In this document: positions 54,132 through 55,201 of the stretch, piece after piece
Layout of the letters: each line of letters starts with the position of its first letter
Numbering within the stretch: the stretch's first letter is position 1
Source: Cupriavidus basilensis OR16
GTDB taxonomy: Bacteria; Pseudomonadota; Gammaproteobacteria; Burkholderiales; Burkholderiaceae
Reading direction: 5' to 3'
NCBI RefSeq assembly: GCF_000243095.1
Contig: NZ_AHJE01000017.1
Coordinates: 1 to 64,000 of the forward strand
DNA length: 64,000 bases
Notes under the pieces: generated by a model
What the model was told of the DNA's origin: nothing
The model's input: only the letters and a program-made list of their open reading frames with translations
The model's database searches: none
Position numbers and translations under genes: made by a program

Positions 54132-54548
54132 ATGGCAACCATTCTTGTAGACGTCGTCAGCGCCGAATCGTCGATCTTCTCCGGTCAGGCGAAGTTCGTG
54201 GCGCTGCCGGGCGAGTCGGGCGAGCTGGGTATCCTGCCGGGCCATACGCCGCTGATTACGCGTATCCAGCCGGGCGCGGTGCGCATCGAGAAAGCAGACG
54301 GCAGCGAAGAGTTCGTGTTCGTGGCCGGCGGGATTCTCGAAGTCCAGCCCAAGCATGTCACCGTGCTGGCGGACACCGCCATCCGCGGCGGCGACCTCGA
54401 CGAAGCCAAGGCGCAGGAAGCCAAGCGCGCCGCCGAGGAGTTGATGCAGAACCAGAGCAGCGATCTCGACCTGGCACGTGCGCAGGGCGAGCTGGCTGTG
54501 GCTACTGCGCAACTGGCTGCCATCGCGCGCCTGCGCCGGAAACGGTAA
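54132..54548 (+). CDS. atpC: ATP synthase F1 subunit epsilon (AtpC)
   Basis: 138 residues, with the N-terminal beta sandwich ([20 protein letters not shown]) and two C-terminal helices that can inhibit ATP hydrolysis. It is the last gene of the operon, with a terminator 48 bp downstream. Confidence 0.93.
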
Positions 54549-54589
54549 GAAAACAAGGCCGCCCAACCGGGTGTCTTTTGGCGGTGGCG

Positions 54590-54622
54590 AAAAAAAGGCA
54601 GCTGCGAGGCTGCCTTTTTTTT
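54590..54622. terminator. Bidirectional terminator after atpC
   Basis: GGCAGC (54597-54602) and GCTGCC (54609-54614) with loop TGCGAG, flanked by seven A on the left and eight T on the right. It can stop transcripts from either strand. Confidence 0.9.
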
Positions 54623-54652
54623 ATCCCAACGACTATTCTGTCGGCTCAGGAC

Positions 54653-54688
54653 AAAAAAAAAGCGCGCGGGCCGGGGAGGCACCGCGCG
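54653..54688 (-). terminator. Minus-strand intrinsic terminator with no gene
   Basis: CGCGCGG (54663-54669) pairs with CCGCGCG (54682-54688). The nine A at 54653-54661 read as nine T after the hairpin on the minus strand. No minus-strand gene ends here. Confidence 0.7.
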
Positions 54689-54689
54689 G

Positions 54690-55201
54690 ACGGGAAAATC
54701 CCTTCGAGGGGTCAATTCGAAGGAACGGGTAAGGTCCAGGTCAACCAACAGGCGCTAACCACTCTCTTTGTGGTTCAGCACTCGGTCAGGCGGTATTGAT
54801 CGCATTCAGACGATCCAACCAGCCGGAACCGGCAAGCGCCAACATCATCTCAACCTGGTACACCGATCACAGGCGTCGCCTGCGATCCGGTCAATCTGGG
54901 TGGGAATGCTTCCTTAGGCTTTCTTCACTGACGCCCTCCCTTTCTGTTTGGGGGAGGGAGCGCCTTTCACAAAAACTGATTGTGTTAAAGCATTGTGGGG
55001 GAAACTTTTGGGGATGGCAGTAACAAAATGTATCGGTTTGCAAGAAGTTGAAAGCGCGGTAACCAAATAAATGTCTAAATAGGCATGTTAATCCACATGC
55101 TACCGCACTCGCCGTCAGGCGGCGGGAACATCACCACGCGGCGCGGGTCCGATAGTTTTTGCTGATTCGCCATCCGCCTTGCGGTCCGGCCCTCGATTGC
55201 C
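54690..55201. other. Gap after the ATP synthase operon; possible minus-strand small RNA
   Basis: About 510 bp without a protein gene. A perfect CCTTCGA/TCGAAGG hairpin (54701-54723) lies just upstream, on the minus strand, of the orphan terminator at 54653-54688. This arrangement would suit a short structured RNA on the minus strand. I see no convincing promoter. The rest of the gap is featureless. Confidence 0.3.

Follow-up and report, generated by a model that had tools for sequence, protein, structure and literature searches.

Among described regulatory RNAs, the closest counterparts of the RNA considered here are ArcZ of the Enterobacterales, S17 of Bordetella pertussis and NcS25 of Burkholderia, Paraburkholderia and Pandoraea. 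ArcZ has, like this RNA, a variable 5′ part and a highly conserved 3′ part, and it pairs at Shine-Dalgarno sites, as is predicted here; its 3′ part is released by RNase E, and an antisense mRNA was proposed to destabilise it (PMC11331407). S17 (the Betaproteobacteria toxic sRNA, RF02278) is likewise betaproteobacterial, its loops pair with ribosome-binding sites, and its long form is processed to a short 3′ form (PMC11722255). NcS25 (RF02869) has a comparable length of ~84 nt and a similar GC-rich terminator, and it is described as acting on a conserved gene for a surface protein by anti-Shine-Dalgarno pairing (PMC10117139). A further parallel is PilR of Synechocystis, which is reported to lower a type IV pilin, pilA11 (PMC5924778), as is proposed here for another pilin.

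When the window, that is the whole 64-kb stretch of Cupriavidus DNA that was analysed, was compared with Rfam 15, there were no matches at the gathering score, and the best weak matches in 54600-55150 reached at most 18.7 bits. The weak matches to suhB/mmgR, NcS25, tfoR and other families stayed below a third to half of their cut-offs and were rejected; for NcS25 the score was 16.5 bits (E 2.1), with the cut-off at 46. S17 was also rejected, as RF02278 gave no gathering-score match in the window and did not appear in the list of matches with E ≤ 10 for 54600-55150. Separate copies of RF02278 are present elsewhere in the own genome of the window, with two of the five matches above the cut-off.

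The locus lies downstream of the ATP synthase operon and is read in the opposite direction, from the minus strand. The operon terminator is a hairpin flanked on either side by A and T tracts (54590-54622, no strand assigned). The initial annotation had described here a strong hairpin followed by nine T, which ended no known gene, with a second perfect hairpin directly upstream, and both hairpins are real. The intrinsic terminator (54653-54688) consists of a hairpin at 54688-54663 and the T9 tract at 54661-54653. Hairpin 1 (54698-54726) has arms at 54726-54717 and 54707-54698, which enclose a 9-nt loop at 54716-54708 with the seed sequence AUUGACCCC; its inner 7 bp (CCTTCGA/TCGAAGG) are perfect, while the whole 10-bp stem includes G-U pairs. 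The two hairpins, the linker and T9 make up an invariant 83-nt 3′ module (54653-54735, minus strand), which folds with an energy of −31.8 kcal/mol, compared to −19.1 ± 2.62 kcal/mol for shuffled sequences (z −4.85), and none of 200 shuffles was equally stable; the z value of the plus strand over the same stretch was −2.77. The single long minus-strand open reading frame across the terminator (54185-54748) overlies atpC, and hence no plausible gene ends there, in agreement with the initial annotation. The U tract of the terminator and the AU-rich linker GAUUUU would be compatible with an Hfq-dependent sRNA. A simple consensus terminator scan of the window listed two sites, with 4.7 obtained in shuffles, and missed this terminator, so the case for the sRNA rests on conservation.

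The alignment of 43 Cupriavidus loci showed that positions 54730-54656 are nearly invariant, with a mean identity of 15-base blocks of 1.00 at 54730-54686 and 0.94-0.99 at 54685-54656, while it falls to 0.20-0.37 at 54820-54746. A second island of identity is located ~300 nt upstream of the 3′ module, at 55060-54986, with values of 0.20-0.78 between this island and that at 54730-54656. Among all loci there were 52 distinct versions of a 94-nt form of the module. The structure was compared in 23 sequences from three genera, where 98.2% of cells of hairpin 1 were paired with no compensatory change. The covariation check that had been suggested for the locus was carried out and was not informative: 99.0% of cells pair over the 19 pairs of the whole structure, two pairs vary one-sidedly and none compensates. 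Covariation says little because the sequence hardly varies, and shuffles cannot discriminate. The invariance of the sequence in the absence of covariation indicates that selection acts on the sequence itself, as expected of a seed which has to fit its targets.

The sRNA gene was detected in 35 of 36 genomes of the same genus, including the own genome, and the only miss was a genome that is 54% complete (G012). It was also present in all 16 genomes of the Ralstonia group. In a family-wide sample of 200 genomes, 39 had strong matches (E < 1e-15), which comprised 22 from the own genus, 16 from a second genus and one from a third, and nine further matches were weak (E 0.002 to 0.009). Scanning named genomes for the exact pattern yielded 50 stretches, all from Cupriavidus, Ralstonia or unclassified Burkholderiaceae. 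An order-wide sample of 300 genomes gave three matches and nothing else, two of them in the own genus and one a 24-base chance match in a coding gene, and the plasmid and phage collections searched contained no copy of the sRNA. The genome of C. necator UYPR2.512 has two copies near opposite ends of one contig (G029:C1:8605 and 4124473; L106 and L107), perhaps because the overlapping ends of a circular chromosome were not merged. Elsewhere, a stretch of 39 bases (L058, G001:C9:3275-3313), located ~130 nt upstream of the start of a periplasmic binding protein gene, matches, at 83%, the complementary sequence of the linker and the terminator arm of the sRNA.

The position of the site between convergent units, with the atp terminator adjoining, could also suggest a conserved DNA element or a barrier to convergent atp read-through that involves no RNA regulator. 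This explanation is highly improbable, since the conservation extends beyond the terminator to hairpin 1, the loop and the linker, and since it persists in Ralstonia, where atpC was recognised beside the sRNA gene in none of the eight loci with long flanks; it would also leave the complementarity to pilA, described below, unexplained. In the only fully listed Ralstonia locus (L110), the genes on the other side, for DUF3298-like, CoA-binding and hydrolase proteins, are shared with Cupriavidus. Hence, the atp neighbourhood is not essential to the sRNA gene. We conclude that the locus is almost certainly a real, conserved regulatory RNA gene.

The upstream island (54986-55060, minus strand) contains TTGCAA at 55043-55038, the box GATACATTTTGTTAC at 55034-55020, and CACAATGC, at fixed spacing, with a −10-like CACAAT at 54997-54992. 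The box is reminiscent of OmpR-type sites. The pattern was found in 42 of 43 Cupriavidus loci, with the 43rd off by one base, in all eight Ralstonia loci and in the locus from the third genus (L055). Although a sigma-70 consensus scan gave no match within it, the island at 55060-54986 looks like the promoter of the sRNA, with the transcript predicted to start 7 nt downstream of the −10 element. The distance from the end of the island to the seed is 205-333 nt in Cupriavidus, 100-120 nt in the eight Ralstonia loci, widening to 100-122 nt over all the Ralstonia loci tabulated, and 83 nt in L055; the fixed island and module at a varying distance indicate that the promoter and the 3′ module travel together while the length of the body varies. 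The probable full transcript has ~330 nt with a variable 5′ part (54653-54985, minus strand), and an ~83-nt processed 3′ form is possible. The gene therefore appears to be a free-standing intergenic unit, with its own conserved promoter-like island and intrinsic terminator. The original reading of this site as a minus-strand sRNA, lying downstream of the ATP synthase operon and oriented against it, is supported by the promoter-like island, the variable body and the invariant 3′ module in three genera. Its interval, 54653-54723, holds as the 3′ end but is too short for the whole gene, which likely extends to ~54985, with the promoter at 55060-54986. An open reading frame for MMLALAGSGWLDRLNAINTA can be read in the 5′ part (54848-54786, minus strand), which could point to a gene for a short protein or leader peptide. 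Such a gene is barely credible, as conservation is lacking in this portion of the RNA, L004 has lost the start codons, and most of the genus has no counterpart.

The BLAST side matches of the sRNA pointed, on the complementary strand, to the starts of pilin genes. The second, partial matches (q25-61) are located where pilin genes start and have the opposite orientation, and hence a paralogous sRNA was rejected as their source. The start of pilA in the own genome, AAAATCtCTTCGAGGGGTCAaatcATGCAACGGGTACAAC, is predicted to form 22 contiguous base pairs over its Shine-Dalgarno sequence with positions 54695-54716 of the sRNA (minus strand). The duplex includes a second helix of a further 8 bp, in which ACCCGUU at 54724-54730 (minus strand) is complementary to AACGGGU of the first pilA codons, and it has a predicted energy of −47.4 kcal/mol. 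None of the 222 open reading frame starts and none of the 167 sites with a Shine-Dalgarno sequence and ATG in the window reached an energy as low. For 42 Cupriavidus pilA windows the mean duplex energy was −46.7 kcal/mol and the mean z value against shuffled windows −7.7, with the weakest at −2.4; as these windows were picked by their first-codon pattern, which is part of the second helix, they are somewhat biased toward pairing, and other pilin types were excluded.

The specificity of this match was examined by searching 60 Cupriavidus genomes for the 14-mer CTTCGAGGGGTCAA, the complement of the sRNA stretch, with the reversed pattern as a control. There were 88 matches, of which 59 were at the sRNA gene (including two in G029), 29 were before pilA and none was elsewhere, compared to a single match for the control. 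The pilA matches occurred once each in 29 genomes, 14-20 bases ahead of an independently found pilin reading frame. Among the 42 pilA windows, the 14-mer was exact in 29, had one mismatch in 11, and had four and six mismatches in one window each. The pilins of the C. metallidurans/pauculus type carry the seed match at most. In 20 Ralstonia pilA windows there was no special pairing (mean z −0.76) and the Shine-Dalgarno sequence was different, even though Ralstonia keeps the 3′ module with its loop. The second 13-mer sites in Ralstonia were rejected as targets, because all 10 are inside one ABC-transporter coding sequence and not at its start, which is explained by coding coincidence. Hence, the conserved complementarity to the start of a distant gene that marks a trans-encoded sRNA is present for pilA in Cupriavidus and not for pilA in Ralstonia. 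These data strongly suggest that the sRNA acts on pilA in Cupriavidus. Since its sequence matches the beginning of the pilA mRNA in reverse, the sRNA probably turns pilus production down.

The conservation, anatomy, complementarity and specificity observed are best explained by a trans-acting sRNA gene that blocks the translation of pilA, to which we assign a probability of about 80%. The regulated promoter at 55060-54986 would drive the synthesis of an ~330-nt RNA ending at 54653, whose constant 3′ module would display the seed AUUGACCCC in the hairpin loop. The seed would pair with GGGGUCAAU at the pilA Shine-Dalgarno sequence, and the duplex could then extend across the linker and the stem of the hairpin until it reaches the 22 contiguous base pairs, with the second helix in the first codons. 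A duplex at this site is proposed to exclude ribosomes from the pilA mRNA, so that less pilin would be made. Hfq would presumably be required and the 5′ part may be processed, while pilC and pilZ, which have the same short seed site, may be co-regulated.

Of 15 Cupriavidus genomes, 14 have the sequence GGGGTCA before the start of pilC, against none of nine Ralstonia genomes. It also precedes the start of pilZ in 12 of the 14 Cupriavidus genes that could be resolved, a count from which L332 and nine Ralstonia genes were left out. In the own genome, pilC (T2SSF) follows a gene for a pilB-type ATPase, and pilZ follows the gene for DNA polymerase III delta′. A genome-wide search for GGGGTCAA-N0-5-ATG, with the reversed pattern as the control, gave 7 versus 5 matches in the own genome, 16 versus 8 in G031, 13 versus 4 in G030 and 4 versus 1 in a Ralstonia genome, and hence the 8-base seed is modestly commoner than its control. 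The seven matches in the own genome were at pilC, pilA, a minor pilin gene with a doubtful start, a Porin_4 porin gene, an inovirus coat protein gene and two places without a gene. The pilus genes matched were pilin, pilZ and pilC in G031, and pilA, pilZ and pilC in G030, with none among the four Ralstonia matches. Many remaining matches were outside gene starts, and those outside pilus genes included genes for an Excalibur-domain protein and a periplasmic binding protein. The hypergeometric P values for pilus genes were ~6e-4 (2 of 7), ~1e-4 (3 of 16) and ~4e-5 (3 of 13), assuming 6,500-7,500 genes with 40 pilus genes and treating every match as a gene start. By duplex energy, as many as 60 (pilC), 23 (pilZ), 41 (minor pilin) and 63 (porin) of the 222 background starts in the window were as good; these four are thus ordinary, and the claim for them is weaker than for pilA. 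On balance, the seed sites favour pilC and pilZ being under the same control as pilA.

The minor pilin gene (L370, own genome) was not counted as firm, because the ATG beside the seed would give a 35-residue leader while MVSAQLG is read from a later ATG; the seed site may thus lie ~90 nt ahead of the true start. The porin gene (L374, C372 in the own genome), with GGGGTCAACCATG at its start, is a possible further target. The Shine-Dalgarno sequence AAGGGGTCAATCATG of the inovirus coat gene (L409, G000:C400:94838, on the contig of the window and outside the window) matches the sRNA seed, and an identical coat protein start is present in a 6.8-kb viral contig (L408). Filamentous phages often have pili as receptors.

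Neither a pilC nor a pilZ gene was matched in three of 18 Cupriavidus genomes tested (G016, G482 and G032), in which the sRNA module is intact. Because Ralstonia, with its unpaired pilA, and Cupriavidus genomes in which pilC and pilZ are not detectable keep the sRNA gene, the sRNA must have other targets. This raises an alternative with somewhat less than an even chance, that the main ancestral targets of the trans-acting sRNA are other genes, and that the pilA pairing was added specifically in Cupriavidus or is of secondary importance. It is consistent with the presence of the gene in two groups where pairing with pilA is lacking, Ralstonia and the genus of G336, with its retention in the Cupriavidus genomes named above, and with the seed at the porin and inovirus coat genes of the own genome. 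On the other hand, no second target with long pairing emerged from the 14-mer search, which had no match elsewhere in 60 genomes. This alternative is compatible in mechanism with the blocking of pilA translation, and the pairing with pilA may have arisen after the sRNA or may have been lost in Ralstonia.

The opposite strand also carries a conserved signal. A −10-like TATTCT at 54634-54639 (plus strand), from which an antisense start would be expected near 54648, belongs to the pattern TAT(T/G/A/C)(C/T)T found on the atp strand between the atp and sRNA terminators in 43 of 43 loci of Cupriavidus, the genus tested. Its spacing from the atp terminator is kept even in four loci with extra sequence before the sRNA. 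In C. metallidurans CH34, a copper-responsive orphan start at CHR1 3,784,309, with a transcript of ~550 nt, was confirmed by 5′ and 3′ RACE (PMC7563307). If G031 is CH34, to which it is similar, this start is 9 nt downstream of the −10-like element and just past the sRNA terminator. If it were on the strand of the sRNA, it would come after a terminator and have no promoter, and hence it most likely belongs to an antisense RNA through the sRNA gene. The conserved element probably drives such an antisense transcript, the main text of PMC7563307 giving no strand for the start. This conserved −10 and the RACE-tested start could alternatively suggest that the functional RNA is the plus-strand transcript from ~54648, either an antisense or sponge with a pilA-like site or a long 5′ UTR of the next gene. 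We regard this as improbable, because the T tract, the promoter island and the fixed orientation, all common to Ralstonia and L055, point to the minus strand. A more elaborate form of the pilA-blocking model would make the one loop seed, UUGACCCC, a dedicated type IV pilus switch, in which the Shine-Dalgarno sequences of pilA, pilC and pilZ are drawn to the same heptamer, pilA is held by the 22-bp duplex, and the antisense RNA from the atp-side promoter titrates the sRNA through its pilA-like site; this model is speculative and rather unlikely as a whole.

The literature search, which covered a minority of subscription papers, found no sRNA of this locus, nor any trans-encoded sRNA of Cupriavidus or Ralstonia described as pairing with the mRNA of a major pilin. 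The sRNA is apparently so far undescribed. If the explanation is true, it would provide a simple means of controlling pili post-transcriptionally in strains that serve in metal bioremediation and biotechnology, as well as an example of an old sRNA whose target changed between neighbouring genera.

Compared to the described systems, ArcZ differs in belonging to another order and in having other targets, and no sequence relation to it is expected; processing and Hfq dependence are presumed for the Cupriavidus sRNA. S17 is distinguished by the lack of an RF02278 match in the window, and NcS25 differs from the Cupriavidus sRNA in hairpin 1, the seed, the neighbouring genes and the target. PilR is reported to be a cyanobacterial RNA (PMC5924778) encoded in cis, antisense to its own target, while the Cupriavidus sRNA is encoded away from pilA.
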